A stretch of DNA of 64,000 nt from Dastarcus helophoroides (Eukaryota; Arthropoda; Insecta; Coleoptera; Bothrideridae), in assembly GCA_028583605.1 (NCBI GenBank), contig CM053331.1, positions 15,174,857 through 15,238,856 on the forward strand, read 5' to 3'. Both the position numbers and the translations under genes were made by a program. The notes below the pieces were generated by a model. The model was not told the origin of the DNA and made no database searches. It worked only from the letters and a program-made list of their open reading frames with translations. Of the stretch, positions 187-61,800 are shown piece by piece (the stretch's first letter is position 1; every line of letters begins with the position of its first letter).

Positions 187-2104
187 TCAAAGCACTGCGA
201 GTAGGATGCGGAAACAAGGATAGATGGCGATGAACCGCCTTCTTAAACAAGGATGGGTTGTAATTTTTGGGAAAATTCCTTTCGGTAACAAATTCCATAA
301 TTTGGAAGTTCTATAAAAAAAAGAGTCTCCGTAGACAAAAATCCTCACTCTGTCAAGCTGGACCGCACAGGAATTTGCTTTCTCCGACTGTCTAGTACGC
401 CTTAAGAATCTTGCCCTTGGGGGGATTAATCATATTAATTTCTGCTAGAATCTTTCATGATAGTACTTGTAGAAAAGAGACAAGTCTTCAACCATACACC
501 TGTGCTCTAGTGTTTCGAGAAAATCGGTCAGACTCTCGTCATCAATTTGGCGAATCACTCTTCTTTGAATTGAATCCAAGAGAGCTAAAGTCTGATTTGT
601 GGCTGAACTGCAAACATAAGAACAGTATTCTAGTGTCACCCTAATTTGAGCTTTGTATAATGGTAATAGCTGATGAGATGTGAAGTACTTTTTAGCTTCA
701 AAAAGAAAGCCTAGCTTCTGTGAGGCGGATTTAGTAATGGCGCGCACATGATCGTCCGAAGAGAAGTTAGTGCCTGCATTCACTTCTAGAATAGATGGAT
801 TGGATCCCATGGAAAGGATTTTATCGTCCATTAGTATGTTTGTTGCATTATCCCTTGATGTTTTGATGTTTTCTTAGATAAAACCGCGGTCTGAGTTTTT
901 GAAGCGTTGAAGTCGACCATATTGTTCTTACCCCATTTCAAAATAATCTCGAGATCCGGATTAATTGTCTGTATCTGCTGTTCCCTTAGTCGATCTGAAG
1001 CAGAGATAGATAATGGTTTGTCGGAAAAAAAGATGACACAAGGTTACTATCATCTGCGTAGCTATATATAGGATTGAAAGCTAAAGCGAAGAGATCGTTT
1101 ATGTATATCAGAAATGGAGTAGAAGACAGAACAGACCCCTGAGGCCCCCTGCGTTAATCGCAAATGTCTGGGATGAGACGACGATCTGAAGAGACCTGTC
1201 AACGAGAAAATTGAATATCAAATGACAAAGTCCAATAGTAAGGACCATAAGATGTTAATTTGGCGAGAAGAGATCGGTGCCAGACTCTGTCGAAAGCCTT
1301 TGAGATATCCAATGCCACAATCCTAGCCTCACTATGTTTTTCTATAGCTGATTTACAGATATGAGTAACATATGCCAGTAGATCGCCAGTGGAACGTTGT
1401 TCTCCATAACCGTATTGCCTGTCGGAGATGATTCTATTTTTCTCCAGATATTTGAGAATTTCGATGTTGTTACCCTTTTCATCACTTTAGATATAACGGG
1501 TAACAAAGATATAGGGCGATAGTTGTTAGCCAGATTCCTTTTTCCTTTTTTAGGGACAGGCTGCACTCTAGCAGATATCAAGATGTTAGGGAATACACCT
1601 TTGTTGTAAGAGAGTGTGAACAATTTGCTAAGGACAGGAGTCAACTCTAAGGCGCACTTCTTAAGAACAATAGCGGGAATACCATCAAGGCCAGACGCTT
1701 TCGAGGTTTCGAGCTCAAGGAGAATCTTCCCGATTTTGCGTTGTCTAAAAAAAAACTTTAGGCATCGAAGTGCTAACCTTAGGGAGAATAGGAGGTTCTG
1801 CGTTTCGAGAACCAAGATTGGAATTTTCAGCAAACATTAAAGCTAACATGTCAGCCTTTTTCTTGGAGGTAGTAGCAATATTGCTATTTTCATCGAGTAA
1901 AGGTGGAAAATTTGAAGATGTAAAATTCTTTCCAATCGACTTGGCAAATCACCAAAAGGACCTGGAACCGTTTGGACAGTTGATAAGCCTCTGGCGCATT
2001 TTACGATCGAAATCACCTTTTGCCTCGTCAATAACCTGCTTACAATAGTTTCGTGCATCTACAAATATGGTCCGAGTCTCGACTGAGGGATTATTTCGCC
2101 AACG
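187..2104 (-). pseudogene. Reverse transcriptase and C-terminal region of LINE copy 1
   Basis: This is the reverse transcriptase part of the same element. Motifs in order on the minus strand are SKASGLDGIPAIVLKKCA (about 1700), NYRPISLLPVISKV (about 1530), GPQGSVLS (about 1140), the catalytic YADD box (1049-1060), then LGFLFEAKKYF and the C-terminal HERF segment (ending near 445). After further frame breaks, a recognisable tail (FYRTSKLWNLLPKGIFP) continues to the stop at 187-189. Both catalytic aspartates of YADD are present. At least four frameshifts or stops disrupt the frame, so this is a fossil. The linker at 1840-2100 resumes exactly across the solo LTR insertion. Confidence 0.85.
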
Positions 2105-3815
2105 TGTTACGGAGTTTTTCCCCAGTGAAGGAGTCGTGGCTAAGTATTTATAATATACTGGAAATTCTGTGCCACTATCAAACTAGGAAATAATTTCCTT
2201 CACTATCGCCGGCTAGCGTTTGGGAAAGAGCAAGAGCCTCTTCTTGTTACAGGCTGGGAGACGTACACCCCTGTGAGGACCCCGCGTTTGGGCCGATGTG
2301 ATAATCTAGGGGGTGGAAAACTTTCCAAAAAGTGACAAGTCCGGAACTCAAGAGTGAAAATATTTCTAAGTCCCAGATTTCGCTTAAATAGAATTAAGTT
2401 TGGTAATTGCGCGGCACGACGGCTAAAGAATACCAAAAAGGGGCGCCAAGTGATTTTGAATCACGCAAGATACCTAACGGAGACGTCGAAAAATCACCAA
2501 AAGATGCTCAACACGGAAGCTGGACAATTCAATCCTAGATGGCGTAGTTCCCGTTCTCGTTGCCACTCTCTCTGTGACCTACCTTGTTGAGAGTGTTGCT
2601 GTCTAGGTTCTAACCTTACAATTTAGACAGACAGGAAAATAATTCTTAGAAGCAATAAAATAAAATATTTCAAAGGCATGATAAGTTCTAATGTACTGCA
2701 CGGTATTTCACACTTGACAATGTACGCACTCAAGGTACGTGTATCTTTCACAAACTTTCTTATTCTGGTCTTAAATTACTGACACTATTTATTTGAAAGA
2801 AAGTGCGCACTTTGTTCCGTACAGCTGTTTACAAAAGTTGGTAAACGTTACCATTAATATATATTTAAAATACTCTATTCATGGACATAAATATTTAGTT
2901 CCTGTGACGTTTTAGCAACAAGAGCAGAAGAAAAATTAATGAACAACTAAAATTTGAAAATCACACATAAAATTAACACTGGTTGGACCCAAGCCCACCA
3001 GAACAAGCTACTTAAGCAAACGAAAAGGGGCTGTAGGTAAAATTTCAAACTGAATTATAGTTTAGGTCACACTCCAAATAATTGACATGGTTGGGAAAAT
3101 CCCCAAATAAAAATATAAAGATGGGGAAATTAAGTAATCGTCGTGAAGGGTCCCAGGTCGAAGTGGATGCTGGTATTTCGTGCAGCTATTGACTCGATTT
3201 ACACGAACTTCCTTCGCCGAAGTCCTCGAAGCCCACACTTGGAGGTTTCCACGAGACGATGATCACTCCTTTGGACCTCCTTGTGTCTCGTTACAGGTCC
3301 TGATTGACAGATCAGAGATGGATCCAAAGTTTCCGATGACCAGGATTTAAAAACGAATCCGACAAGGATCCCAACCGAAAAAGAGCCTATAAAGATGAAG
3401 AAAAATGGGATTTGCTCTTTCAAATACCGAAGGTTGAGGGGGACATGCTCATACCTTGGTTATTAGGCGGCTCTGCCGCGTGCTTGGAAAGCAGCTTCCT
3501 GCTTATTACCGAAAAACCGAAACCATCTGAGGTTTTCGTCCCAACTCAGTAACACCATGAAATACAATCGCCCCAGACGGTCCGAAGATGGGTTACAGTA
3601 AATCCCTTACAGGAAGAACAACCAAGATGCACTTGGAAAATGCTGTAACCTCACCTTGAGAAGGATGACACCCAAGTGAATGACAAGAGAGAAGATGGCC
3701 GACTTCCCCCACACCAAGACTGACAGAAGATATGCCAGCACTTATAAAACCAACCAATGTATGTTTGGTGGCCTAGCCACAAGCACTATTTCTTGCGAAA
3801 ATTTAAACCGTAACA
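2105..3815 (+). mobile_element. Solo LTR (1711 bp) inserted in LINE copy 1
   Basis: The segment begins TGTTACGG and ends CCGTAACA, a perfect 8-bp inverted terminal repeat with the TG...CA ends of LTRs. It is flanked on both sides by AACG (2101-2104 and 3816-3819), a 4-bp target duplication typical of Gypsy-type integration. Removing it with one AACG rejoins the LINE linker so that it matches copy 2 at about 22405-22440. No gag or pol coding is visible inside; the 74-codon minus-strand frame at 3199-3423 matches nothing I recognise. A TATA-like TTATAAAA at about 3741-3748, about 70 bp from the right end, suggests plus orientation with a long U3. It is much less AT-rich than its surroundings. 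A complete non-autonomous LTR element is less likely, since no internal LTR repeat is seen. Confidence 0.82.
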
Positions 3816-3819
3816 AACG

Positions 3820-4911
3820 ACGATATGCGCGATTTTTTCAGGAGACAACTTGAGCACATTTTATACTGAACCAAGGTTTACTGAAGCCAGACTTCTTTTG
3901 CAATTGGGGAATTGAGCATTCCATACCAATCAGGATAGTTTCCGTGGTGGATTCGGCGACTAAGGAAGGGTTGTCTGAGTTGAAGCAGACTTCCTGCCGT
4001 GGAAAAGATGCAAAGAAGTCTCTTAATTCTTTCCAGTTTGCAGAGTTAAAGTACCAAACTTTACGGGACTGCTTCTGAAAAAAAGGCGGTATATAAAGCG
4101 AGCGACAGGCTGCTACAAGCTTGTGATCCGAATTTCCAAGCGGTGATGTCACAGAGATTTTATACAAATTTGGTGAATTTGTAAGGAAAAGGTCGAGTAG
4201 ATTAGGTTAATGGGTATCTACATCAGGAATTCTTGTGGGTTCCTCAACTAATTGCGCTAGTCCACAAGTGATGGCAAAAGCCTTTGCCACTCTTCCCGCG
4301 TCGTCAGTTCCGGAAGGAAACCTTTACCAGGGGATGTTGTGTACGTTGAAGTCACCGAGAAAGACAACCTCAGCTTTTGGATAATTCGTCTGTAGGTGAT
4401 CAAAGGTTACGGAGAGATAAGAGAAGAGCTGTCTGTATAAGGGATCATTTGGAGACAAATAAAGTAAAAAAATGAATATTACTTTGTTTTTGGAACAGAT
4501 TTTCAGCCAAATCACATCATGATCAGCAGATTCCACTGCTTCTTTTTGTTGACAGGACATGTCGCTTCGCGTAAAAGCACAAATTCCTCTATTGTGTCGA
4601 AATTTTGTGTGTAAGTCGTAGTTAGGGCAAAGCAAATGGACTGTATTGATGGATGGGGAGACTTGGGTCTCTGTCAGAGACATCACATGGGGTCTTTCCT
4701 TTTGAAGGTGTCGATGAACCGAGTTTAAATTTGAGTTTAGACCCCGAATGTTACAGAATTAAATTTTGAATGAATTGTTTGAAAGAAACTTGGCCCGTGG
4801 TTCATTAAAATTTTCCGTTGATTTTGGATTCCCTTGTACACCCTCCACCCGGCCATCCGAACGGGAGGGTAATTTACGTCCGGAATTTTTTGCACGAAGA
4901 GAGTCCATCAT
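3820..4911 (-). pseudogene. APE-type endonuclease domain of LINE copy 1
   Basis: This is the N-terminal part of the LINE polyprotein, which nicks target DNA for target-primed reverse transcription. The likely start is the double ATG at 4906-4911, because copy 2 also has ATGATG at the same place. Visible endonuclease motifs, in order, are CNIRGL (about 4741-4758), SLTETQ, LYLSPND, GDFNVHN (about 4328-4350) and NSDHKLV (about 4117-4135). The catalytic Asp and Asn of GDFN and the SDH triad are retained here, whereas copy 2 has lost the GD. An in-frame stop lies just before CNIRGL (4759-4761) where copy 2 has a Gln codon, and there is a frame break between GDFNVHN and the SDH segment. Family assignment is firm; activity is not expected. 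Confidence 0.85.
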
Positions 4912-5159
4912 ACTTGTTTTTAATAATTAGAAGCAAGCATTCTACCACCTACCATCATTAATTACGGATGTGGGAAGAAAGTAAAAAAAAACTCTTTGAA
5001 CTATCCTAAAGAGTCGCAAAACTATAATGTTCCAGGAAACTGGATCTTAAAAGCGATGTGTTTCATCAACGTTATATTGTATATTTTTCAATTATAATAA
5101 ATGTTCTCTAATGAAGCAATGCGAAGGTACTAAAAATTCTAAATATTCAGAACCGCTAT

Positions 5160-5300
5160 CATACAGGGTGATTTACATTAGGGTACGCCCCACATAAGCC
5201 CGAAACATAATCCAGTATACAGGGTGATTTTTGAAAGCGATCCAACCTAAATATCTAGAAAACAGAAATTTTATGTGCAAAATGCCAAAACCAGACAATG
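5160..5300. repeat. Two transposon end motifs (ACAGGGTGATTT)
   Basis: ACAGGGTGATTT occurs twice, near 5165 and 5219, 54 bp apart. TACAGGGTG is the terminal sequence of several foldback elements in this window. The second copy lies downstream of the transposase remnant at 5840-6700 and may be its 3' end. No matching opposite end could be found nearby. Confidence 0.5.
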
Positions 5301-6700: not shown

Positions 6701-8640
6701 ATAATTTTAATTCTTTCAGGAACCGAGTACACCATTTTCACCCGAACATTTGCAGATTTACTTTAAAACTGAAAAATTGTCAACCTCAATGCGGATTCTT
6801 GACCAGTGACCCAAAAAAAGAACTCCTGCGACACCATTTCGAAAAAAAGTTTCATCATATTGTCTCAAAGCCCTATGAAGCCTACTAGAATATTAAAAAA
6901 TTTTTATGATTTTATGTCCAAAAAATGAGTTTTTCGGAAAAAACAGATCTCGGATTTTTAATCAGCGATCCCAAAAACCCCTACTACACCCTAAGCAATG
7001 AGTTTTCCGAGAAGACCAACCACGGATTTATGGTCAGCATCCTAGGATGCATTTCCGAGGCAATTTGTGTTAATTTTCCCGACTTTGAGAATTGCTTAGC
7101 AAAACGCCGCATTTAGGGAGTTGTTTTCAATATTAAGTGGCGAACAAAAATCTAGCGACTGCGTTTTAGTAGCAGTGAATGTTTCTTGGGTCATCAGAAA
7201 TGGAATGCAGAAAGAATTTTGAAAATCTAACTTATTATATGATTTATTTTTATCTATTTCCCGGCTTATTGCCTGGATTAGTATATGGCCTGAGGTTTAA
7301 AATATTGTCAGTTTTTAACGTTCGCACTGTTTCATTAGAGAATATTTAAGTGAAATAAGTTCACATATCTAAATGCATGTCTTGCCGAGGACGCTTGTAT
7401 TTAATGGAATTTGCTATAAATAATGCAAATTTCGAATATAAGAAAATTAAATTTGCCTCACTCAGCGACCTTTGTAACCGTTTAGAAAAACTTAGGATTA
7501 CATCGTTCTTTTGGTTATATTTTTAGACATACTCTAGAATTAAATACCTTGCTATTTTTTTAACGTTTCGTATTTATATAAATTGCTTATCTGATGTATA
7601 TTTTTCTTCTGAAGGTACTAATAATATAACAGATAAAAGAAAAATATATTTAATATAAAAACGTGCATCAAATGTTACTAATAAGTTCAACGCATTTATG
7701 TTAAATGCGCAGGTATTAAGCTGAATTCGTGATCTCCAATATGTTAATAAACTGTCTAGAAAATGCATTTAAATCGACCAAATGATCTGCTGAAATCCCA
7801 GCAGTTGTGATCATTAAGTCCCCCTTAGTTGCTCTTTTAATTAAAGTAAACGGTAATGCCCAGTGGAACGTTTACCAGACGTTTGTTTCAAGCTGAGAAT
7901 ATTCAACATGTGGCTGATGGCGTTATGATGCCAATGGCAAACTTCTACTGTTATTACTGGAATCGAATGGCGAAAAATATGTGTAATGCACAAGATTAAC
8001 GAGCACGGATCTTCCTGCTAACTTGGTCTCTTCGTGCTGTACTAGTAATAATTTAGATGAAATCTCGCGTTAATGGTATAATTAAATACAAACCGAACGT
8101 GCTTCAAATTATTTATGTTTCATTTGAGGAAACGCAATGATAGATACTTTTTTGCTTGCGAGGCCATAGAGGGAGCAACCTTCTTAGTTGCAGTCAAATC
8201 TATCTTTGTGTTTGAAATGCGTATATAGTTTCTAGTGGAATTCTGTGCTTTTAATTGGAAATGAACCAGTTTTTATAAATGATTTTCGTGAACAGCGGCA
8301 ATTACTTCATGAAGCTTTAAGGCTTTTTTTGTGTATAAAATGAACCTACTACTTGTATTGTAGTATTATTTTTACATTTTTATTATTACATGATTGTTAA
8401 TTTAGTACGACTGTGTTCATGTTTTTATATGAATGCATAATGGGTTCAAAATGTTATAGTTTCAGCATTCCCTTATCTCAAAAGCGTAACATGCAATTAT
8501 GAAAATTTCCACTAAACAGTTCTGCTTTCAAACAAATCTCTTACCACGTAATTTCTTTTTTATAATACTAAACCAATTATCACAAAACATAGATTCAACC
8601 AATGCTTTCTACTTTTTTGCTTTTCTTAAAATTCATCGTT
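6700..8640. other. Unassigned AT-rich DNA with short degenerate direct repeats
   Basis: No gene is recognised. Within 6790-7060 a short motif recurs three times: GCGGATTCTTGACCAGTGAC near 6791, CTCGGATTTTTAATCAGCGA near 6948 and CACGGATTTATGGTCAGCAT near 7021. The 63-codon frame at 6925-7116 lies within these repeats and has no protein signature. The rest shows only scattered short open frames. Confidence 0.45.
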
Positions 8641-16290: not shown

Positions 16291-17878
16291 TACAGGCTGG
16301 ACCATAAGTAATTTTACACAGAGAAAAAGCGGTTTTTCCATGTAAAAATAATGTATCGTAATTTAGGTAAATTTACCTTTTACCGAAAGTTAATATTAAA
16401 CGAGATACAGCATGCCAAAACTGAAAAAAAAACCTATTTTTTTATATAACTATTGAATAAATTGACACAAAGGGGTTTCTTAAGTCGACAAATTCTAATT
16501 TGCTAACATATTAACAATAGCTAATAGGGGGCGCTACCTGCACTATCCTGCATGACTTCAAATCATCATAACATTTTTGTGTACCCACGTATATTTATTT
16601 TAAATAAGTAGTTTTATTTCCTCATATTATTTACCTAAAAGGGCATACATTCTGAAAGTTCATACGCCAACCGTTGCCAAGATATTTGCCTTTAAAGTTT
16701 GATGTGCCTTCGTTTTAAATTACTCAAGATGTTAAATTTTGGAATTAGGCTTGTAAAAATATAATAATAACACAGCTTTCAAAGTCACCTATATCAAATA
16801 TACTTTGCCGATAATGTTATTCCCTCGATTTTTAAAATCTCAATCAAGAAAATGCAAACAAAATTAAAATATATTGTATAGGGTGAGTCATTATACGGTG
16901 TAGCTCTGTAGCTCCTACAGATTCTTCGCTAATATTTTTGTTACGAAAGTACATTAGCATAAGGTGCACTTTCTAAAATTATTTTGTAATATAGACAATG
17001 AACATATAAAGAGTGGTGCACTAAAATTGCTTTTTTTTGAATAAAACACCCTACATATTTTTACATATTTGATCTGTCCACAAAATTCTGATTAAAATAT
17101 TGTAAACAATAAAGGCCTGCGGTTAACAGCTTTTGACATATTTGACAAAATTTGACAAATTTAAGCCCCAATTACAAACTTGCTTGAAAGGTGGAAAACA
17201 CCCAAATAATTTCATTTTTTAGCGCAGATTATTTCAAAATAACTTTTTTTTAGAAAATGATGTAATTTTATTTAAATAACATTTGAAGTTATACGGGGAG
17301 GTTAGCAAAGGCAAAATGACATTTTTCTCAAAAAATTCAAATGACACACCCTTTATAATAATTTCTATTTTTATTATTCAAGGCTTTGCTTCAATACAAA
17401 TATCTGTGTGGCTAATTCTTATAGTTCGGGAAATATTTAATTTTAAATTAAAAAATTTAAAATTTTCTTATTTATTTTAGTAAAATGCGTTTTCTCTAAA
17501 TTTTTTTGGACCTAAACGTCTTTAAAATACATTAATTTATTGCATCGTTTTAATTTTAATTATATAAATTACATATTTTCAAAAACATGTTGGTTTGGAT
17601 GCTGCTTATTATCTACACATAAATTCTATGCATCCGTGTTCTATGTTCTCTGCACAGTTTACATTATTTAAAAAAATATGGGCAAATCTAGTTTATGGTA
17701 CAACATTCGTTCATTCTAGTCAATTTTAAATTTGTTTTGGGGAAGAAAATTTACGAAACAAACTTATTTTCCACAACGACAATAAAAAGAAAATTAATAA
17801 ATATATTTTGGGGAGCCTATTTTCAAAAAGAAAGTAGATTAAAGAAAGCTACGCTTTGGCCTAATCAAGCTAAAGTGA

Positions 17879-18344
17879 TGTTTTGAAACTAGATGAAAGT
17901 AAAGTCACGAGGACGTTTGTATCTATGGATGTTGCGATGCAACCCGTGATACAAGCTTTGCCTCATCTACGTGAACTTTGCAATTGCAGTCTAATTTTCT
18001 TTAGATTCTAATGAAATTGGATTTCAATTGCATCGTAATAAACTTGTATATATTCATATATACAAGGCTTATTATCTCAGCAGAGAGTAATGCTTCAATT
18101 AGCATGTAGCGAAAATGTTTGCGTAATAAACAGTTAAAAGACACTTACAAGTCACCCAATGGAGGTTTGCTCTCTTGGATACTTATACGACTGACTAACG
18201 GCTTTAAATTGGAAGTGTATACAACCACCGTACCATGCTGACGAGGCCAAGGAAGGCCGAAACTAGTCTATGGTTGCGGTTGTACATATTTTCAATTTTA
18301 GCACGTTTAACTGTTTAATTACAGAACATTTAATTGGTCATTTG
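17879..18344 (+). mobile_element. Retrozyme-like 466-bp unit with hammerhead ribozyme and 14-bp target duplication
   Basis: The unit is flanked by an exact 14-bp direct repeat, TCAAGCTAAAGTGA, at 17865-17878 and 18345-18358. This is the mark of a retroposed insertion. It has no open frame of note. It carries a complete type I hammerhead ribozyme at 18213-18291, about 55 bp from its right edge. It also has a perfect 10-bp hairpin with a 4-base loop (CTTGTATATA...TATATACAAG, 18044-18067) and a small hairpin GTTGC-GAT-GCAAC at 17931-17943. Its left edge starts TGTTTTGAAACTAG, repeating the GAAACTAG of the ribozyme 3' part, possibly a trace of a truncated upstream ribozyme copy. Non-coding units with hammerheads that spread as circular RNA (retrozymes) and Penelope-like elements are the closest known types. 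I do not recognise this family. Confidence 0.68.
18213..18291 (+). ncRNA. Type I hammerhead self-cleaving ribozyme
   Basis: All conserved core positions are present. CTGACGA (18238-18244) fits CUGANGA. Stem II is GGCC-AAGGAA-GGCC (18245-18258). GAAA follows at 18259-18262. Stem III is the minimal self-complementary ACTAGT (18262-18267), followed by C17 at 18268, so cleavage is predicted between 18268 and 18269 after GUC. Stem I has an inner helix ACCATG/TATGGT (18232-18237 with 18269-18274), an internal loop ACCGT/TGC, and an outer helix TACAACC/GGTTGTA (18220-18226 with 18278-18284) that continues with mostly paired bases to about 18213/18291. The internal loop and the six-base loop II are where type I hammerheads form their tertiary contacts. 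The tiny stem III suggests activity as a dimer, as described for Penelope-like and retrozyme hammerheads. Confidence 0.85.
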
Positions 18345-18613
18345 TCAAGCTAAAGTGAAATAATAACGGTTGTATATTTTGCCTTGGATTGGTAAAATTG
18401 CAAAGGCGAGGGAAGACATGTCGAATTTCTGGTTTTGTAAACTTTTTTTGGAAACTGTGCGCTAAAAAGTTTATTTATTAGTGTTTTTCATTACCTTTAA
18501 GAAATGTTTCAAACAGTTTTCATCGAGGATGCATTTTAAACATGAAAATATCAACATTTTTTACTTTTCAAATTTAAATTTAAATAACTCTTAAATTATA
18601 AAAGCTAGACCTA

Positions 18614-19907
18614 TACGAGGTGTGTTAAAAAAGTAAGGTGACTTTTTTATGAAAAAATATTTATTTATTCAACATTTATACTGTCCCCTTCAAAGTAATC
18701 TTCCTCAGATACAATGCACTTGTGCTAACTCTTTTTTTTTTTCAATTTTCAAAGTACTTCTCACAAGCACTTTTTGCTGTAGCCTTGAGCTCCTCTAGCG
18801 ATGCAGCTTTTATTTTAACAATCGTTGCAAATCTTCGTCCTATCATAGGTCTTTTAAGTTTTGGGAAAATAAAAAAGTCGCGCAGGCCAAATCCGGTAAA
18901 TATGGTGGCTGAGGCGTGATTGTCGTGTTGTTTTTGGCCAAAAAACCTCTCACAAGCAACGGTAAATAAGCAGATGCATTATCGTGATGCAAAAGCCATG
19001 AATTATTTGTCCACAATTCCGGACATTATTTTCGTATTGCTTTTTGTAAACGGCGCATTACTTCAAAGCAATATTCCTTATTAACCGTACGACCTTGAGG
19101 TAAAAACTTCTGATCCACTATGCCATGGTAATCGAAAAAAAAAAAAAAAAACAGTGAGCAAAACTTTGACATTTGGCGTGCTTTTTTCGATCTTGGCTCT
19201 CCTGGGTGCTTCCATTGGGACGATTGGGCTTTGGTTTTGATGTCATAACCATATACCTATGATTCGTCACCAGTTATGACCCTTTTGGGCAAATCAAGAT
19301 CATCACTGACGTAATTAAAGAGCTCCTGAGCGATGCTCATGCGACGGTTCGTCTGATCAAAATTCAGAAGTTTCGGAACAAACTTCGCTGACACACGTCT
19401 CATGCCCATAACATCCAAAAAAATTGCATTACACGAGCCGACTGATATGCCAACATCCTTGACAACTTCTCTTAAGGTAATTCGACGATTTTCAGAAACA
19501 ATTTTCTTCACAGCTTCGACGATATCTTCTGTTGTTGATGTGCTAGGGCGTTCAGAGCGAGATTTGTCGTCGACTTCTTCTCGGCCATCCTAAAAGAGTC
19601 TGCATCACTTGTAAACATTTTTTTTACTTAGAGCACACTCACCGTACGCCACTGTCAACATTTTAAGTGTTTTAAAGCACTTGACTTCATTTTTCACACA
19701 AAATTTGATGCAAATTCCTTGCTCAATTATTTATAATAGTAGAAAATTGCCGAGCACATCGCCGAGCAAAATACATCTAACCTTTTTATCTGTCAAAAAC
19801 AACCTAAGTATGCTATGTACCTAAAACTGTGAACGAAAAATCAATAATCGAATATACGTTGCCTTCGAAACTTGAAAAGTCACATTACTTTTTAAAGCCA
19901 CCTCGTA
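18614..19907 (-). mobile_element. Mariner element, 1294 bp
   Basis: The terminal inverted repeats are TACGAGGTG...GTGAC at 18614-18642 and the inverted, slightly diverged form at 19879-19907. They are flanked by TA on both sides (18612-18613 and 19908-19909), the expected mariner target duplication. The length is typical of mariner. It encodes one transposase on the minus strand (18665-19618). It lies inside the foldback at 16879-20420, so it is younger than that element's insertion. Confidence 0.88.
18665..19618 (-). pseudogene. Mariner transposase pseudogene
   Basis: This is a DD34D transposase that would bind the terminal repeats and cut and paste the element. The best-preserved part (19257-19511) reads ENRRITLREVVKDVGISVGS, the second helix-turn-helix, and continues through FVPKLLNFDQTNRRM to RVITGDES, where the Asp of ITGDES is the first catalytic residue. 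The N-terminal region starts near an ATG at 19616-19618, and the C-terminus reads DYFEGDSINVE before a stop at 18665-18667. The span allows about 317 residues, near the usual 340. The body between is broken by frameshifts, and a homopolymer of about 17 A sits on the plus strand near 19135-19151. Confidence 0.85.
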
Positions 19908-20950
19908 TACATTTAGATTAAACCAAAGCTTAGTTATTGCTTAACAAAAATGAAACATAATATACAGTTTGTGTTATTTAAATTTTTAAATGTAATTTTT
20001 CGTTTGCTAATGATCCTGTATAACAGCAAATATTATTTAAATAAAATTACATTATTTTCCAGGAAAAGGATATGCTGTAATAACTTGCACTAAAAATAAA
20101 ATCATTTGATTGTTTTCAGTATTTTAAACAAGATTACAAATAAGACCCAATCTTCATGATTTTTCTAAATTTCTCAAATATTATTAATAGCAGAAACTTT
20201 CGTTTGATATTATTTTAATTAGCATTTTGTAGGAGATTTAAATATGTAAAAATGTATAGGATGTTCTATTTAAAAAAGGCAACCGTGCACCGTGTATGTA
20301 TTCATCCTGAATGGTAAAAAATAATTTTAGAATGTGCTCCTCGTAGTAGTATTAAAGAACTTTTGCTATAAAAATAATTGTAGGAACTACAAGGCGTTTT
20401 CCTATTATCGACTCACCCTGTGTTTTCTAACATAGAAATGTGAGATATGATATGATTTCTGAATCCGTACAAGAAAATTTTATTGGTCTGGTTGGTCAAA
20501 GCAGGTATTTGGAGATAAATTCCGGTAACAGATAGCGAGATTTTTAATTGTTTACAATCCTTTTACATGACAGATCAATTTTCACATATTCATTTTTGAA
20601 AAAAATTTTGTTTTTGTATTTGTTTAAATTTAAAACATATGTGTAATAATAATGTTAGTGAAGTAATATTTAATATAAATATTTTGAAGTCAGTCTTATT
20701 CGTTTTATTTTAAAACTTACGACGGAAAGTTCACATTTAGATAATTTAAAATAAACCTACGACAAATTTTGAAAGCAAATATCTTGAGAACGGTTGCTTA
20801 AAACAACAACATTCTAAAGGTTTACAACATATAAACAAAAGTATTTATTTAAAATAAATGTACATGGAGACATAAAAAAGTTGTTATTACAATACAGGGT
20901 AATGACAAATCCACTCTTGGTCTATGTACCATTACTTATTGTCCACCCAG

Positions 20951-21353: not shown

Positions 21354-24056
21354 ATGATGTACTCTTTTCGTGCAAAAAATTCTGCACGTAAACTACCCTT
21401 CTGTTCTGGTGTTTGGGTGGAGGGGTGCGAGGGAGTCCAAAATCGACGAAAATGCGGCACGAGCCAAGTCTTTTTTAAATAATTCATTCAAAATTCAGTT
21501 CTGTAACATTCGGGGACTAAACTCGAATCTAAACTCGGTTCATCAACACCTTCAAAACGAAAGACCTCATGTTCTGTCTCTGACCGAAACCCAAGTGTTC
21601 CCATCCATCAATACGGTCCATTTGATTTTCCCCAATTTATTCTTGCACATAAAGTTTCGACACAAAAGGGGAATTTGTGCTTTTGCGCAAAGGGACCTCT
21701 TTTGTCAACGAAAAGAAACTCTGAAATCTGCTGATTATGATGTGATTTGGCCGAAGATCTGCTCCAAAATCGAAATAATATTTATTTGTTCACTTTATTT
21801 GTCTCCAAACGATCTCTTATACAGGCAACTCTTCTCTTATCTCTTCGTAATTTTCCATCAGCTCCAGACAAATTATCCAAACGCTGAGGTTTCATTTCGT
21901 TGTGCCTTTAACGTACACAATCTCCCCTGGTTAAGGGTTTTTTTTCGAACAGATGATGCGGGAAGGGTGGCAGAGGCTTTTGCCATTACATGTGGACTAT
22001 CGCAATTGGTTGAGGAACCCACAAGAATTTCTGATGTAGATACATATAAAACTAATCAGTTTGATCTTTTTCTTACAAATTCTCCAAATTCGTATAAAAT
22101 TTCTGTGACGTCAACGCTTAGGAATTCAGATCACAAGCTTGCAGCAGCTCACTTCATATACCACCCCCTTTTCAGAGACAGCTTTGTAGGGTTTGGCACT
22201 TGAATTCTGCAAACTGGGAAAATCAATTTTGCAACCTTTTCACAAGAAGTCTGCTTTCACTCACACAACCCTACCTCAGTTGCCGAATCTATCACTGAAA
22301 CTATCCTAGTTGGTATGAAATCAATTCCCCATTCCCCAAAGAAGTCTGCCTGCAGTAAATTTTGGTTCAGCAAAAAAAGTGCTGTGCCTGTGTCCTAGAA
22401 TAATCGCGCATACCATCGTTGGCAAAGTAATTCCTCAGTCAAGACTTGGACGCACGAAATTTTCGAAAACAGGTTATTGAAAATGCAAAAAGTAATTTTC
22501 ATTTTAAAATGCGCCAAAGGCTCATTCAAGGTCCAAAGGGCTTTAGATCCTTTTGGGGATCTGCAGTCAATTGAAAACAATTAAACATCTTTAAATTTTT
22601 CACCTTTACTCGATGACAATAACTTCCAAAAAAAGGCTGACCTGCTTACCTTAATGTTTGCTAAAATTCCAGCCTTGATTCTCAAAACGCAAAACTCCTA
22701 TTTTTTCTAAGGTTGGCATTTCGATGCCTGAAGTTGTTTCTAGGCAACGCTCATCCATAAACATTCTCCCTGAGCTCGAGATATTGAAAGCTTCTGACCT
22801 TAATGGTATCTCCGCTATTGTTCTTAAGAAGTGCACCCCGGATTTGACTTCCGTCCTAGGCAAATTGTTTACACTTTCTTACAACAAAGGTGTATTCCCT
22901 AATATCTGAAAATCTGCTAAGATGCAGCCTGTCCCTAAAAACGAAAAAAGCAATCTATCTAACAGCTATTGACATATATCTTTTTGCTGTCCGTTATACC
23001 TAAAGTGATGAAAAATATCATCAACTTCGAGATTCTCAAATATCTGGAAAACAACAAAATCACCACAGAAAACTTTCAGGCAACAACGTTTAACTGGCAA
23101 GCTACCGGCATATGTTACTTATATCTGTAACTTAGCTATGGAAAAATACGTTGAGGCTAGGATAATGGCATTGGAAATCTCAAAGGCCTTTGACAGAGTC
23201 TAGCACCGATCTCTCTTTGCCAAATTAATATCTTATGGTGTTTCTCCTGGACTCTATCATTTGATATCCAGTTTTCTCGCTGACAAATATCTTCAGTTTG
23301 TTGTTGATGGCGTCTTATTCGAGACATTTGTGATTAATGCAGGGGTGCCTCAGGGGTATGTTTTAACTCCTATTCTGTTTCTGTTACACATTAACTATCT
23401 CTTAGCTATAATTTTCAATCCGATATACAGCTACGCAGATGGTAGTAGCCTGGTTTTATCTGTTTTCTCCGTCAAACCATTATCGACTAAGGCAACAGCA
23501 GATGCAGATAATTTATCGGGATCTTGAAACCCTTTTGAAATGGGTTAAGAAGAATCTGGTCAACTTTAACCCCTTAAAAACTTAACTCACGATTAAAAAA
23601 AAACAAGTAATAATGCAACAAACATACTCATGGGCGGTAAAATCCTCTCGATGGTATTTATTCCGTCTATCTTAGAAGCCAATGCAAGCACCAATTTTTC
23701 TTGGGACGATCATGTAAGGGCCTTGTCAGGTTTGCTTCTCAAAAGCTAGGTTTTATTTTAAGAGGTAAAAATTCCCTTCCATCTCATCAGCTGCTCACCC
23801 AATACAAAGGTAAAGCTAGGCCAATACTAGAATACTGGTTTTACATTTGAAGTGCAGCCGCAAAACAAACTTTGACTTTTTTGGATTAAATTCAAAGAAG
23901 AGCTATTCGCCTAATTGATGACAAGAGTTTGACCGATTCTCTCGAAACGCTAGAGCACAGGCGAATACGTTGTAACTTATATCTTTTCTACAAATACTTC
24001 TATGAGAGATGCTTGCAGGAACTAATAGAATTGATCGCTCCAAGGAAAAAATGTTT
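21354..24056 (+). pseudogene. Non-LTR retrotransposon copy 2, endonuclease plus reverse transcriptase
   Basis: This belongs to the same family as the copy at 143-4915. ATGATG at 21354-21359 marks the start by comparison. The endonuclease is open from about 21370 to 22203. It has CNIRGL, LSLTETQ, LYLSPND and a degraded FRCAFNVHN where GDFNVHN is expected (the catalytic Asp is lost), then NSDHKLAA. The linker spans 22204-22650. RT pieces follow: LKASDLNGISAIVLKKC (about 22790), GVPQGYVLTPILF (about 23345) and YADG (about 23432), in which the second catalytic Asp is replaced. A C-terminal part ends at FLYKYFYERCLQELI. Homology to copy 1 stops near 24056, so the 3' end is truncated. Frame breaks occur throughout. 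Confidence 0.85.
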
Positions 24057-31249: not shown

Positions 31250-33450
31250 AATCAAACTACCAAATTAGGGTCTAAATTTCAAAAAAGAAGGATTTTTCAG
31301 AAAAAGTCAGAAAATCGAATATGAAATAAAACCTTTCAGAAAATCTCGAAAAATGCTGGAATTTCTAAAAAAGTCGAAATTTCCAAAAGACAAATTTTGT
31401 ACAAAAAGTCACAATTTCCAGAATAAATCAAATTTGGAGAGGAAAACTGAAATAACCAACAATATCTTCCCCAGAATTTTTCTTTATTTAAATTTTAACA
31501 TAATCGGAAAGCTTTTTTTTGAAATACTCTAAAATTATTTTTCTCAATATTATGACGTTTTATTAATATTTTGTTCCAATTTTCAAACAATTAAACGAAT
31601 TTTGAGAAAAAGTGAAAATTTGGAGGAAGTAGAAATTTCCAGAAACAAAACGTCAAATTTTGGGGTATATCCTGTTCATAGAATAAAACGAATTTGGAAG
31701 TGGAAATCTTTTTTTTTTTGGTGGAACGGACTTGTCCTTGGTTATGTTCCAAAATTGAAAAGATTAAAAAATACGACAATACGACAAAAATTGCTCTAAC
31801 GCTTTTCGGTGGCCAAGCTATCATCTTCAGAAAGATACTGATATCCCCAAAGATGATAGTTTGGCTACTGAAACGCCTTACAGTAACTTTTGTTTTATTT
31901 TTTATCTTTCTTACTTTCAGAGGACAAGATTGGTATAACAAGTGAAAATCCACAAGGTCAAATTAAAAAAAAATCAGAAAAAACTGAACATTAATAAAAA
32001 TGAATTTCGAAAAATGCTGTCAAAATTTGGAGAAAATGATAGACATTTATAAAAAAAATTCAAATTTACAAGAAAATGAAAGAAAGAGCGGAAAAAGTAC
32101 AATTTAGAAAAAGTTATAGTTTTGAGAAAAGGTCAAAATTTTTAGAAAATCGAATTCCCCCTTCTGTGAAAATTTTAAAACTGTCGAAAAATCGAAAAAA
32201 GACAAAAAAAATTGCAATTTGGCAAAAATATTCTTTTCTAAATATTTACTTTTTTATTTAAATGTTAACATAATATTTAAAGTTCGGTAAAGAAGTTTAA
32301 TTTTATTCTTTAACTACAAAAATATTTTCTCAATATAGTTGCTTTTTATTAACATTCCGATCGAATTTAAAGAACATAAATGAATCAAGAGAAAGTAGAA
32401 ATTTTGAAAAGAGCCAATTTCGGGGAAGAAGTCTGCAACCCTAAAAACAAAATATTTCGGGATAAAAGTCAAAATGTGAAAAATAAGGCATAGTTTGAGA
32501 AATATGTAGGAGAAAAAAGAGAATATTAAAAAAAATATCGGAATTTCCAAACAACATAAATACATATTTAGAAAAGTGGCGAAATTTCGAAAAAAAAACG
32601 ATTTTTGGAAGAACGTTTCAAAAAGAAAAAGAATTTTGAGAATAAAGGCAAAATTTCGAATTTTTGATGATAAGGAAACTTTTAAGAAAAAAAACAGATT
32701 TGAAGAAGAAAAGTCAAGATTTCGAAAAAAAAAACAAATTTCAAGCAAAGAGTCGAAACTGTAGGAAACATTTAGTATCAAATTTTGAGAAAACAGCCAA
32801 AATTTCGAAAAAAAGCAAACTTTAAGAAACTAGTCAAAATTTTTGGAAAATTTGATTTTATTAATTTTTATAAAAATCCAAATGTTAAGGAAAATAAAGA
32901 AATTTCTAGAAATAGGCCAAATTTTAAGAAATCGGTTTAAAATATTTAAGTGAAACTGAGAGGAAATGAGGAATGATTTAATGAAAGTCAAATTTTCATA
33001 AAATAGTTTAATTTTAAATTTTTTTTTAATAAATAGGCAAATTTTGAAAAAAAAATCAAAATTTTCAGATAAAAAGGAATTTAAACGAAAATAATAAGAT
33101 TTTCAGGAACATAAAGGACTGGATTTGAAAGAGAATTACAATTTCTATAAAAAACCAATTTTGAGAAAACTATGGACATTTCGAAAAAAATCACAAATGC
33201 AAAAACAGATTTTGAAAAAAATTTGAAATTTCGAGAAAAAGGTCGAAATTTCCAAAAAAATCAAAACTTCTGAAAAAAATTTAAAATTTTATAAAAATTC
33301 GAAATTTTTCAGTAGTAAATTAATAATTTTTTTTTGAAAAATCACGAAATATGAAGAAAATTGAAATTATCAACAAATGTCGAAATTCCAAGTAAGGCAT
33401 AAATTCTGAAGAAAAAATCGAAATTTCAATTGAATATAAATTTTCGGCGG
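31250..33450. repeat. Degenerate GAAAAAGTCAAAATTT array, A-rich on the plus strand
   Basis: About 2.2 kb of short diverged units carry the theme GAAAAAGTCAAAATTTCnA. It is the strand inverse of the array at 8640-10620. Lysine-rich or phenylalanine-rich open frames, up to 155 codons at 32314-32781 on the minus strand, are composition artefacts. An inverted hammerhead-like element copy sits inside at about 31710-31935. Confidence 0.6.
31710..31935. mobile_element. Hammerhead-like foldback family, copy A (head to head)
   Basis: The left half is inverted: GGTGGAACGGACTTGTCC, then TTGCTCTAACGC...TCATCTTCAG (31791-31830). The right half reads forward (GATGATAGTTTGGCTACTGAAACGCC, 31851-31877, then CTTTCTTACTTTCAGAGGACAAG). 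The two halves meet within about 20 bp. The motif CTGAAGATGATAGC...GAAACGC is the family hallmark. It is more diverged than the copy at 34151-34638. Confidence 0.65.
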
Positions 33451-34214
33451 CTTCCAGAGTCAGGGAGTAAGTACCCTACCCTGCCCTATTCTAGATACCT
33501 ATAAATATAGATAGTTTTAGTTAACACAACTAGTAACATCTATGCAATAGATCGTTTACATTTTTTTTAATGATTCAAGGTGATTGAAGACGGTCTGTAA
33601 ATTTATATTGCTAGTTTAATCGTACGTCGTCCGTTAAGTACAATTCGCGTATAACTCATCGGCTTTTCTTAACAAATTTGGATATTATGAAATCAAAATT
33701 TTAAAAAATTAAAAAACAAAGACGTAATTATCACTGTAAAGTAAGAAATTAACAAAAGTAAAAGCTGAAACTGCAAAAAAATCAAAATGAAAAAAATCAA
33801 ATACAAAATATTTCAAAAATATTGAGAATCAGTTGAAATTTTGAGATTGAATTCAAAATATTTGAAAGAAAATGAATCCAGAAATATTTAGAAGAAAGTC
33901 AATATTTTAAAAAATTTATAGTTTATTTAATAATTTTCTTGGCATTTCAATTCTTAAGTGGAAGTGGAAGAAAAAAATATCGGAAAAATCAGATGTTATA
34001 GAAAATAGTTAAATAATTAAGTTGGAAATTAAAATTAATGTGACGAAAAGAAATTTGAAGAGGAAATCTAAATTTAGCGTTTGCATTAAAAATATAATTT
34101 TACATGAAAGTGTAAAATAGAATGCTAATAAAAGAATTGAAATTAAATTTAAAAATTGAAACACAGAACTTGTCCCCTGAAACCAAGAAAAATTAAAAAA
34201 CACAACAAAGGTTG

Positions 34215-34255
34215 CTCTAACGCGTTTCGACAGCCAAGCTGTCATCTTCAGAGAG
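34215..34255 (-). ncRNA. Hammerhead-like motif, left arm of the palindrome
   Basis: On the minus strand, stem I inner helix CTCT/AGAG flanks CTGAAGA (fits CUGANGA), one extra T, stem II GACAGC-TTG-GCTGTC (perfect) and GAAA. Then comes the self-complementary ACGCGT with T at the cleavage position. The extra base between core and stem II departs from the canonical hammerhead, so activity is doubtful. Confidence 0.5.
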
Positions 34256-34533
34256 AAACTAACATCTAATCTTAAAATTAACCCTTATATACTAAGAATA
34301 TTCACTTCGTGCGTGATCGGCCGCACCCGAACGCGCATCCAATCATACACGTCGTTGTGTCACAATTTCTTACCTATCAACCTTAAATAGTTAAAGTTAT
34401 AGTTAAGGTTGATAGGTAAGAAATTGTGACACAACGACGTGTATGATTGGATGCGCGTTCGGGTGCGGCCGATCACGCACGAAGTGAATATTCTTAGTAT
34501 ATAAGGGTTAATTTTAAGATTAGATGTTAGTTT

Positions 34534-34574
34534 CTCTCTGAAGATGACAGCTTGGGTGTCGAAACGCGTTAGAG
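34534..34574 (+). ncRNA. Hammerhead-like motif, right arm of the palindrome
   Basis: This is the same fold as the left-arm copy on the opposite strand, with one change: stem II here has a G where C is needed, giving one internal mismatch. The extra T after CTGAAGA is also present. Confidence 0.45.
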
Positions 34575-35199
34575 CAACCTTTGTTGTGTTTTTTAATTTT
34601 TCTTGGTTTCAGGGGACAAGTTCTGTGTTTCAATTTTTGAAGATAACCAAGGACCAGTCCGTTCCATCAAAATTAAATTTAAAGTCAACACTTAGAAAAT
34701 AAAAGGAAAATCGTTCTAATATGACATGCTGATCATAAAGTCAAAATTTTGAGGGAAACAGTCAAAACTGCATTTCAAATCGCAATTTTGAGAAAAAAAA
34801 TCACAATTTTGATTAAAAAATGGGGTTTTAACAAATTTTGAGGTTAAAAATTGAAGCTTCGAGAAAACCAAAGGCGTCAAAAATACTCCAAATTTCTTGA
34901 AAAGGTCGAAACTCTTACTTACGTGGAAAATGTCAGAAGAAATTGAAAGTGTAAAATGTATTAAATTTTAGAACTTTAATAAGGAAATCGAAATTTCGAG
35001 ATTCACATTTTGTAAAAAAATGGACATAAAAGAAAATTCTCAATTCACAAATAATTCTCTAATTTAAATAATTTCAATTTAGTTCTGAAGAGAAAATTAA
35101 AACACGTCGAAGAAAACGTTATGCCCGAAAGCGTTAAACGTTTTTGTGGAGAAAAATCGAAAATTAATATTTTATTTAATAATTAGTTAATTAATGCAG

Positions 35200-37070
35200 C
35201 AATCAAAATGAACACTTCTCACTGAAAATCTTTTTGGGTAATTTTATTTAAAGCAACATTTCACAAATGGATTATCGAAATTGTCATTTAAAATTTAAAT
35301 TACCTTTATTTTGTACATTTATCCGTTATCATTTTTCAGGGACCAGCCCCCCCCACCCCCCTAGAAAAAAATTGTAGATATGCCAATGGTTGCCAAGTTT
35401 TTTATATGTGTAATAATTATATTAAAGTATGTCATTGTCATCCAGTTCTAAGCGATGAATAATGTTTTAAGTTTCTAGCCCATCGGGAAGTTGGTTTAAC
35501 CCGGCTGTAGTCGCACCATTCTTTTGGGAAAATATGGTCGCGATGGTTTTCACAGACCCAAATAAGTTATGGACCCTATTTTTAGGAAATTAAATGACTG
35601 AAACCTTTAATCGGTTTATAGATCATGAGAAATTACCCCTTTAAGTAAATAACAACAGCAAAAATGAAAATAACAACATATAAGTAAAACACATGTTGCT
35701 TCATAATTCATATTAAAAATGTTTAATTCCACATTTTTCAATTTTACGGAGAGCTGATTTTAAAAACATAAATTAAACAACTGTATAAAATAGTCGTAAT
35801 GCACAAGCAACATAAAAATATTAACAGCAACTCAAAAAAACAAGATATAAAAATAATTGACATTTTTAACTTCTACTGCGTGGAATTCTTCAATTTTAAA
35901 AACCAATAAACTATATAAATGATAAATATAACAAGAGATATAAAAATTTCAGAATATTTTTATAAATGTTTGCTATGACCGGTTTCGATTTTCAGCATCG
36001 TCGTAGTTTGTTTAGACCTTGTTATGAAAACTAAGTTCCATGACTCACGGACTTCTAGGAATATTTCGTCTACTTCAAATTCTCATCTAAAACTTGAACT
36101 AGGGGTGTATCCAGAAGATCTCATTTATAAGTGTAAATTGTCTCGATTGTAAATATTTGCGATTTCTGCGGCTTTCAGGAAATTAAGTTTTTTAGTATTA
36201 TTGTAAATATGTTATACTTCCATTGTGTTCGCGTTTGTAAGTTCATTTTGTGTTTATAATAGATGCTTTACAAATTTGATCTTTGTGAATGTTTATTTCT
36301 GAAGGCACCAAGATGTTCATTCTACCTAATAAGAAAATTTCGTGGTGTTTGACCTATATACACAGCTTTACACTTAGAGTAATTTAATTTATAAATACCA
36401 GATTTACCAAATTCTGGATTTGTTTCGTTTTTTCTTTTGCATTAAAAAGCATTTCAGTTAACGAATTAAATGATTTAGAGCTAGGTGTCGCTTAAGATGT
36501 ACGAGAAACCATATTACTTTTTTTGAGATGTTTTTAAAATATATTATAGCAAAATAGTCTATTTTGTGGAAGGGGGCGCATTGCATGAAAGTTGTCATGT
36601 TCACGTTATCACAAAAAATAAAAACCATCGAGTCTAAGAGACCCGGCGCGACTACCGCCGATTAAAAAATGTGTACAAACACTCAGTCACATATGAGTGT
36701 CAAACGTTAATTGATGCTATTTTTCAATCACAGACAAGAAAGTGAGTTAGTGAAAAACGCGCAGTAAAATTAAGAGAAAACCCCGTGCCAAAAAGAGCAT
36801 GCTATAAAACGTTTTTTTTTATATGTTTTTATTATTCAGTAGTCTGTCTACGAGTAGTCGATTCTTTATCAGAAGTAAGGTTATTCTATCAAACAATTAT
36901 TAAAGTATTAATATATAGAATGATTCATAAAGAATACGACCGTCACAAGTCCGAAAGCTTAACCTAATTGATGATTAGATAGAAAAATATTATCTTTGGA
37001 CAACCCGTAGAAATGTCATAAAAATAGCTTAATTGACAAAAACTATGTTGAAATACAAATCTTCCTTCCC
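35200..37070. other. Unassigned AT-rich DNA
   Basis: No gene is recognised. It includes a short C-rich tract (about 35347-35361) and the degenerate hammerhead-like motif at 35973-36006, listed separately. Open frames such as 36785-36967 have no signature. Confidence 0.35.
35973..36006 (-). ncRNA. Degenerate hammerhead-like motif with ACCGGT stem III
   Basis: The minus strand reads CTACGACGATGCTGAAAATCG then GAAACCGGTCATAGC. GAAA, the self-complementary ACCGGT and the C of GTC fit the 3' half of a hammerhead, and CTA/TAG can close stem I. The 5' core is CGACGA instead of CUGACGA, so one invariant base is missing. A decayed relative of Penelope-type hammerheads is the best guess. Confidence 0.35.
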
Positions 37071-37074
37071 AAAA

Positions 37075-37255
37075 CCAAGAAAGATTAAAAAAACACAACA
37101 AAGGTTGCTCTAATGCGTTTCGATAGCCAAGTTATCATCTTCAGAGAGATACCCAGAGCAACCGTTGTTGTGTTTTTTGATCTTTCTTGGTTTCGGGGGA
37201 CAAGATTTGTATTTCAATTTTGGAAGTTATCCAAGAACCAGTTCGTTCCGCCAAA
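37075..37255. mobile_element. Hammerhead-like foldback family, copy C
   Basis: The left half is inverted: AACCAAGAAAGATTAAAAAA, GGTTGCTCTAATGCGTTTCG, then ATCATCTTCAGAGAGA (to about 37150). The right half resumes forward at AGAGCAACCGTTGTTGTG through TTTCTTGGTTTCGGGGGACAAG and ends near CCAAGAACCAGTTCGTTCCG. The right half has lost its hammerhead-like part, so this is an asymmetric derivative of copy B. Confidence 0.65.
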
Positions 37256-37422
37256 ACATAAAAATAACATAAAAAGAACTATGTTTCTAATAATACAAGA
37301 TCTCAACTAAAGCCAACTTACCATCGTTATTTAAAAAAGATGTATTTTTAATAAAAAATTAACGTAGAACGTGCCGACAATATGATGCCTAATTTGAGAA
37401 AGTAAATCAACACTTTACAAGG

Positions 37423-57994: not shown

Positions 57995-59290
57995 CAGAAA
58001 CCGAAACCAGAGCGAAAGCTCAAATTTGGTTTTGGTTTATTAGGCCAGAAAAAATGGATTTTTGTTCAAAATAAATAAACACCAATTGTTTTTAGAAATA
58101 TTTCCACTTCTGCTTAACAAATAGGTACAGACAGTTCCCCATTAAGATCGTGTGAAGATCGGCAGCCGCATTCATTTAAATATAAAAACTCTTGTTTTTG
58201 GTCAGTATCTCAAACAATTTAACTTACCAAAAATGTTTTTTTTTAAATGTTAGAAAGCTTACGATATGCTGCAAAAAAGGTATATGTCAGTTTTTTTTAG
58301 ACCTACTCGTTACTGAAAAAATGTCACATGAATAACATGCTTTTGAAGAGTTGCACTAATTTTGACATCACCCAAAAGGTATAGCATGTGACACGTTTTT
58401 TAACCGATTTTGCCAGAATGCCTAATGTACTATTCGGTATTTAACTAAATTCGCAATTTTCTGGTCTTTCTGCAGACTATCTTGGCGGGGAACTTCCTGC
58501 ACTTGTTTGTTAAGCCTAAGTGAAAATGGTTCTAAAATAAAAATTTAGTATTTAACTTTTTTACAACGAGGATGATTTTTCCATTCATCTTTTCTGGATT
58601 ATAAGTCAAAAATCTACTTATAGTCGGTCACTAAAAGACAGATATGTTGAGTTTAATATAGAGCTTTATTCATTTATTGGTACTCAGTTTAGTATCGCGA
58701 GGTGCTTAATTTTGGTTTTGCTAACAATATCATTTGGTCTACAGGCTGCAATAAATTAGATGCTATCTATTAGAGTCTCCGAAACGATAAATGATGCAGT
58801 TACTTAAATAGGAGCAAAGTCTTAAAATATCTTCAAAACCTGTTATCTGGAAAAACGGAGCCGTTTTTGCCAATTCTCTTTACTAACATGTTTTTTTTTT
58901 TGAATTTTTGAAACAAGTTTTTGATTTTGTCATGAACTTTATTTTCTTTAATAATAAATTTTGTTTTTTACAAATGCTTGACATTGCGTTCCATAAAAAA
59001 AAAACTTTTTTCGCATTTTGACTAATAATGTGCGATTTTAGTAAGCTCAAAATTATTCAGTAAAGTGCCACTTTACCCCGTAGATACTTCACTTATTGTT
59101 ATTTTTTAATTATTTTTGGGTTTAAGTAACTAAATTTATAAACCAGTTTTTAAAGATAAACAAGGATAAGTCCGTTCCACCAAAATGTCTTCCTGGCTTG
59201 AAGGAAGCACTATTTAACGATGTTGAGATAAGTTACATTTGAAATCATTATCATCATTTACCAGCTATTAAAAAATTTTATGTTTTTCTG
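57995..59290. other. Unassigned DNA with a fragment of the hammerhead-like family
   Basis: No gene is recognised. At about 59148-59186, AAGATAAACAAGGATAAGTC and GTTCCACCAAAATG match the outer end of the family at 34151-34638 (copy E, end only). Confidence 0.4.
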
Positions 59291-61574: not shown

Positions 61575-61800
61575 CCAAAAATTAAAATACAAATCTTGTC
61601 CCCCGAAACCAAGAAAGATTAAAAAACATAACAAATGTTACTCTAACGCCTTTCGATAGGCAAGCTATCATCTTCAGAAGAGATACTACTACTAGCTCTC
61701 GGAAGATAATATCTTGGCTATCAAAACGCGTATAGGGCAATATTTTATGTGTTTTTTAATCTTTCTTGGTTTCAGGGGACAAGATTTGTATTTCAGTTTA
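61540..61800. mobile_element. Hammerhead-like foldback family, copy D (head to head)
   Basis: The inverted left half runs from GGAATGAACTGGTCTCTGG through CCGAAACCAAGAAAGATT to TATCATCTTCAG (61676). The forward right half runs from GGAAGATAATATCTTGGCTA (61701) through TCAAAACGCG to TTTCTTGGTTTCAGGGGACA (about 61780). Both hammerhead-like cores are mutated. The halves are separated by about 25 bp. Confidence 0.68.

Follow-up and report, generated by a model that had tools for sequence, protein, structure and literature searches.

Insert ends of a hammerhead-bearing retrozyme family in the Dastarcus helophoroides genome resemble those of Penelope-like elements

Penelope elements, Terminons and LINEs have been named as movers of retrozymes, and they figure as candidates only in the descriptions available to us (PMC7229834, PMC7761336). 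Some properties of these systems bear on how such an element may be copied. The axolotl retrozyme, which has a weak palindromic helix III, is described as cleaving well only as a dimer (PMC7229834). Among Penelope elements, head-to-head copies are reported to be the commonest arrangement, with a tail that is optional on one of the inverted pLTRs (PMC3846280). The protein of PAc, the anole element, is reported to cut and extend both strands from two internal sites, and in vitro no difference between the strands was described (PMC11167929). In the open-access literature, searched by titles and the first parts of abstracts, we found no account of where inserts of animal retrozymes end or where their copying starts.

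Here we describe a retrozyme family of the beetle Dastarcus helophoroides, starting from a copy in a stretch of 64,000 nt (hereafter the window). We use insert ends, from DNA alone, to ask what enzyme mobilises animal retrozymes and which form of RNA it copies. The kind of element, an animal non-LTR retrozyme, is already known; what is new is the insertion pattern in 67 loci, and start sites as well as a candidate helper family can now be named in this genome. We propose that the copy in the window represents one lap of a young, non-autonomous retrozyme, the circle of which would have been copied by a Penelope-like machinery, and we give this reading a probability of about 0.58.

The host genome that was searched comprises 538,885,228 bases (539 Mb) in 50 contigs. 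At least 99 family matches were found on contigs C1-C12, with 40 of 1856 first-look candidates scored, and 39 loci were chosen from this search for their near-full-length copies (first set). For a second set, the 76 bases 3' of the cleavage site were used as the query in order to escape this full-length bias. This search gave 70 candidates, of which 40 were scored, and at least 42 matches; 30 loci were retrieved, 3 were dropped as repeats and 27 were kept, three distant segments being set aside. The loci examined number 67, and the copies in both sets were picked by similarity.

The unit in the window consists of 466 bases (17879-18344) between two exact copies of the 14-mer TCAAGCTAAAGTGA, at 17865-17878 and 18345-18358, and a scan of the + strand of the window found no third such site on that strand. 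All six frames of the 466 bases are interrupted by stops, so that the unit is without coding capacity, as the original prediction had stated. The 14-bp repeat also proved to be what had been proposed, a target duplication and not a piece of a larger repeat, although with a 3-base overlap with the element end. Since other family copies terminate in ...ATTTGTCA, the right 14-mer shares its first three bases with the end of the element, and we read the true duplication of the window copy as 11-14 bp. On the left side the predicted border stood only as far as the exact repeat is concerned: the family monomer begins at 17886, with AAACTAG, and is preceded by a 7-nt filler, TGTTTTG (17879-17885, + strand), which differs from the junction sequence of other copies. 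The monomer itself (family m1-466, one lap) extends from 17886 to 18347 on the + strand and matches the L010 monomer at 97.9% identity. A motif at the left edge, GAAACTAG, had been read as a hint of a lost upstream ribozyme; this was ruled out, as the tandem junctions place AAACTAG inside every monomer. The insertion had further been regarded as dated by its placement in a foldback element, which is not supported, since the evidence for foldback arms is weak (they score 38, the best of 200 shuffles 34, and are 65-74% alike).

The GC content of the unit is 36.3%. Its linear fold reached a z-score of -7.8, none of 100 shuffles being equally good, and when folded as a circle it gave -141.6 kcal/mol, compared with a mean of -97.4 and a minimum of -110.6 for 60 shuffles. 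Adjoining the unit, at 18612-19909, lies a DNA transposon with 35-nt terminal inverted repeats that are 89% alike and a broken open reading frame on the - strand, which we take to be of the mariner type. A 210-bp unit is present elsewhere in the window as two tandem copies matching at 91% (61148-61570).

The type I hammerhead lies at 18219-18291 on the + strand. Its core, CTGACGA / GGCC-AAGGAA-GGCC / GAAA / GTC, is located at 18238-18268, stem I is formed by ACCATG/TATGGT (ACCAUG/UAUGGU in RNA) and stem II by GGCC/GGCC, and cleavage is predicted between 18268 and 18269. A descriptor requiring the core, at least 4 bp in stem II and at least 5 bp in stem I was run on both strands of the window and gave one match, at this unit; 200 dinucleotide-shuffled versions of the window gave none. 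The core bases expected by the original prediction are thus all present, and this is the only descriptor match in the window. A covariance-model search had also been suggested, and its outcome was mixed, in that the hammerhead was recognised in register while all matches stayed below the Rfam gathering score. At that score no Rfam match was found in the whole window; using permissive filters on 17000-19500, the best match was Hammerhead_HH9 at 18219-18291, with the core in register (E=0.016; 22.7 bits, where the gathering score is 52). Family copies with CUGAUGA match slightly better, the best at E=0.0092, which is again below the gathering score. The hammerhead shape is 2.7 kcal/mol above the optimum fold. 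Because CUAGUC comes after GAAA, helix III consists of one A-U pair under a palindromic CUAG, and by analogy with the axolotl retrozyme the window copy may cleave well only as a dimer. In the 72-76 copies that span the core, variation was seen at position 7, the tolerant one (C in 67, T in 5), and U16.1 was changed once. Several older copies carry CUGAUGA, and some have an A-U pair at the foot of stem I where young copies have G-U. A hammerhead pattern scan of viral contigs gave no match.

In the host genome the near-full-length copies are 97-98% identical and occur both alone and in head-to-tail tandem with a 466-bp step. The sequence TTTGTCA-AAACTAGATG stands, by our count, at 43 of the 48 tandem junctions of the first set, which defines a family circle running from m1 (AAACTAG...) to m466 (...TTTGTCA), with predicted cleavage between m386 and m387. 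One-lap copies are without terminal repeats, hence the element has no LTR. Solo and tandem copies with duplications of their own had been called for as a check on the prediction, and both kinds were found, most of them with flank repeats. From its sequence the family is almost certainly an animal-type (non-LTR) retrozyme, and we regard it as very young. Further copies were met by chance in loci L053, L085, L051 and L034; the one in L051 is a relative of 69% identity, and the one in L034 is a fragment that ends at m200.

Target duplications of the family measure 8-15 bp. When the 39 first-set loci and the window copy were tested for the longest exact flank repeat, 23 of 40 had one of at least 10 bp, compared with 6 of 1575 mismatched flank pairs. 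The 3' ends of the inserts carry no poly(A), A-rich tail or simple repeat; ARAGORN found no tRNA gene in the window. These 3' ends are nevertheless recurrent: among 54 outward 3' ends in the 39 loci, 35 lie at m460-466 (site A), 16 at m197-202 (site B) and 3 elsewhere. In the window copy, site A (m464-466, TCA) corresponds to 18345-18347, where it overlaps the right duplication, and site B (m197-200) to 18079-18082, both on the + strand, and both would be internal start sites of reverse transcription. One-sided inserts ended at A in 21 and at B in 4 of 25 cases in the first set together with the window copy, and in the second set at A in 9, at B in 5 and at another position in 1 of 15. The 5' ends of 24 one-sided inserts of the first set are scattered from m1 to m433. 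In the second set, none of 15 one-sided inserts had its 5' end within 5 nt of the cleavage site, the position at which a linear cut monomer would terminate. The lengths of the inserts in the 67 loci range from fragments up to 3.2 laps of the circle per arm. We do not claim that inserts of precisely one lap are overrepresented in the first set, because near-full-length copies were selected for it.

Head-to-head inserts were found at 15 of the 39 first-set loci and tail-to-tail inserts at none. Twelve of these 15 could be classified, and every one had one A and one B end; the other three have one unclassified end, and one of them (L018) is doubtful. Of the two-sided inserts of the second set, 11 of 12 were A/B and one was A/A, which brings the one-of-each rule to 23 of 24 classifiable head-to-head inserts in both sets. 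With 21 A and 4 B among 25 one-sided inserts, random pairing would give 27% A/B. An extra A/B pair of the retrozyme, outside these counts, lies about 400 nt past the Penelope ORF of locus L092.

In the first set, the arms and laps of one insert were also compared with one another at 12 sites with variants common to at least 3 loci, omitting segments shorter than 100 nt, three segments of low identity and the window copy. Within loci 397 of 406 comparisons agreed; between loci 21.6% differed, and the lowest value in 500 permutations was 15.9%. The second set is older, and there 67 of 376 within-locus comparisons differed (lowest of 300 permutations, 20.0%); when only segments of at least 95% identity were used 8 of 47 differed, a share that 500 permutations did not reach (their minimum, 19.7%). 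The laps and arms of one insert thus mostly share a haplotype, more weakly so in older copies; part of this agreement may stem from gene conversion once the insert was in place. Of the 24 inverted junctions that could be measured, 21 join arms at unlike coordinates, and overlapping bases were present in 12 of 24. Unlike coordinates fit two joined cDNAs rather than snap-back copying, and snap-back self-priming, which has been proposed for inverted Penelope copies (PMC3846280), is disfavoured by these 21 junctions.

Penelope-like elements are present in the window as 5' pieces in head-to-head inserts, and they form the candidate helper family. Four such inserts, with a piece that bears a minimal hammerhead, are located at 34143-34690, 31711-31957 (older), 37048-37267 and 61543-61803, and single pieces were seen at 59093-59186 and 61333-61360. 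The minimal hammerhead reads CTGAAG-ATG-ACAGCTTGG..., so that its core overlaps the start codon, and an ATG at A9 of the hammerhead is described for PAc too (PMC11167929). In the genome, at least 91 GIY-YIG matches at E<=0.001 were obtained, with 150 of 1070 candidates scored. Locus L084 has RVT_1 and GIY-YIG in one frame, and L086 has an open frame of 350 amino acids that matches GIY-YIG alone. Eight GIY-YIG loci, L050 and seven chosen mostly for long open frames, were checked for the piece with the minimal hammerhead. It lies within 75 nt past the stop of the GIY-YIG ORF in 6 of the 8 and about 270 nt past a premature stop in L050, and among these eight it is absent from L092. At least two distinct GIY-YIG Penelope types were observed (L050 and L087-L093, as opposed to L084-L086), and the piece was seen joined only to the type of L050 and L088-L090.

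A survey of this piece yielded 64 matches in 315,941 bases from 83 sequences, some of which had been retrieved for their Penelope elements. Unpaired pieces (n = 28) end at a short site in 11 cases, at a long site in 15 and at another position in 2. The 18 head-to-head pairs comprise 13 short+long, 1 long+long and 4 with an unclassified end, so that 13 of 14 classifiable Penelope pairs have one end of each kind. The two Penelope sites are about 35-40 nt apart, compared with about 200 nt for sites A and B of the retrozyme. A flank repeat of at least 10 bp was found in 1 of 10 Penelope pairs tested, a scarcity that is perhaps due to age. No sequence common to the retrozyme and the Penelope piece was detected, 82 and 89 of 200 shuffles being equally good. 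The retrozyme thus displays the Penelope insertion pattern while having no Penelope sequence. Near-perfect inverted repeats within Penelope head-to-head inserts, at 34326-34463 of the window and at 2136-2276 of L022, score in Rfam as plant or animal microRNA precursors, below the gathering score, and are a likely source of false microRNA calls.

Two old, diverged relatives of the retrozyme were also detected in the window. One, at 7284-7417 on the + strand (start 7279/7284), was obtained with the circle as the query (E=1.6e-10); its start lies no more than 5 nt from the cleavage site and it runs across the circle junction, its post-junction part alone being equalled by 5 of 200 shuffles. The other, at 5098-5163 on the - strand, begins at the cleavage site, and past its first 64 nt similarity was unsupported (199 of 200 shuffles as good). 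Both start where a linear cut RNA would end, and linear products may have been copied in the past, two cases being few. Two decayed copies of one LINE (endonuclease-RT) lie at 445-4758 (- strand) and 21358-24050 (+ strand), and they differ upstream of the first ORF. The old relative is situated about 480 bp upstream of the ORF of the - strand copy. The idea of a hammerhead at the 5' end of this LINE, based on the relative at 5163, was dropped, as this sequence belongs to the dispersed retrozyme family. The best match of the LINE protein bears a bacterial metagenome label, followed among named sources by a leaf beetle (51%) and a woodlouse (39%).

Several explanations have to be weighed for this insertion pattern. 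A satellite spread by DNA-level events, such as ectopic recombination or extrachromosomal circles, would account for tandem structure, a fixed step and variable end points, and is made highly improbable by the target duplications, the fixed 3' ends on one strand and the A/B rule, all of which argue for target-primed copying of RNA. As to the enzyme that would perform it, a LINE type, for example that of the endonuclease-RT LINE in the window (4758-445, - strand, and from 21358 onward, + strand), has in its favour the presence of these copies and the fact that LINEs likewise leave target duplications of similar size. LINEs are also among the candidates named in PMC7229834. We consider them improbable movers of this family, since the insert 3' ends lack poly(A) or a simple repeat, and two fixed internal 3' ends with pairs of one of each are the Penelope pattern, Penelope pairs being the only ones used in this comparison. 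The retrozyme is probably moved by a Penelope-type enzyme.

The same enzyme could also have copied an uncleaved linear multimer derived from genomic tandem copies, in which case the hammerhead and the circles would be minor in mobility. Tandem loci do exist, the laps of one array would likewise have a common haplotype, and the 5' ends do not cluster at the cleavage site (0/15). However, because inserts reach 3.2 laps per arm, the arrays they came from would need to exceed that length, and no longer one was found in the 67 loci; moreover, the hammerhead motif is kept across the family, a hammerhead of the dimer type should cut oligomers, and published animal retrozymes are described as accumulating as circles (PMC7229834). 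We therefore hold a linear multimeric template to be unlikely and favour, with some reserve, a circular one. The route through a self-cleaved, possibly circular RNA, as originally put forward, agrees with inserts that continue past both the predicted cut and the junction of the circle for as many as 3.2 laps, and the linear multimer fits these inserts too.

Under the favoured reading, that of a circle copied by a Penelope-like machinery, for which we infer the cleavage, the circularity of the template and the identity of the enzyme, the element would be transcribed and its type I hammerhead would cut oligomers into 466-nt monomers at the predicted site; given the minimal helix III, the active form would probably be the dimer. 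The monomers would be ligated into circles. A Penelope-like RNP (RT plus GIY-YIG) would then cut the two strands of the target at positions about 8-15 bp from each other. The cDNA would start inside the circle at one or both of the fixed sites, A (m466) and B (m~200), and run around it, covering anything from a fraction of a lap to about three laps. Extension of one DNA end would give a one-sided insert; extension of both ends, from A and B of the same RNA, would give cDNAs that join head-to-head, and repair would leave the target duplication. More tentatively, a Penelope-type enzyme might use a non-coding circular RNA directly as its template, engaging two different start sites of one circle, one for each cut DNA strand, and rolling around it for up to about three laps. 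If so, animal retrozymes would be circular-RNA parasites of Penelope elements and would imitate the two-start 'tail' signal of these elements by form, not by sequence. A weak helix III that works only in the dimer would then allow oligomers to be cleaved without the circle being opened.

Among known hammerheads, that of the amniotes (HH9, RF02275) is the best Rfam match, with the core in register and a score less than half of the gathering score; unlike it, the present family is mobile and has many copies. Plant LTR retrozymes, as described in PMC7761336, share with this family the lack of coding capacity, a hammerhead and the circular-RNA route. They are reported to carry a type III hammerhead in LTRs of about 350 bp and to leave a 4-bp duplication (PMC7761336), whereas this family has a type I hammerhead, no LTRs and, in the window, a duplication of 11-14 bp. 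The closest agreement in kind is with the metazoan non-LTR retrozymes, which are likewise described as non-coding and of low GC (36% here), with a type I hammerhead, tandem and dispersed copies without LTR, duplications longer than 4 bp and a highly self-paired predicted RNA (PMC7229834). The 466-nt monomer is slightly longer than the published metazoan repeats of 150-450 bp and circRNAs of about 170-400 nt, and its weak palindromic helix III is as in the axolotl, most invertebrate retrozymes being reported to cleave well (PMC7229834). The insert ends, the two start sites and the A/B rule seen here do not appear in the metazoan description as available to us (PMC7229834). Compared with the Penelope-like elements, the retrozyme has no ORF (RT/GIY-YIG), no sequence in common and a fuller hammerhead. 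Both target strands would be extended from two internal start sites, as in the elements described (PAc, PMC11167929; Adineta vaga, PMC3846280), with which it also shares head-to-head inserts whose longer end is on one of the arms, a type I-like hammerhead and duplications of about the same size.
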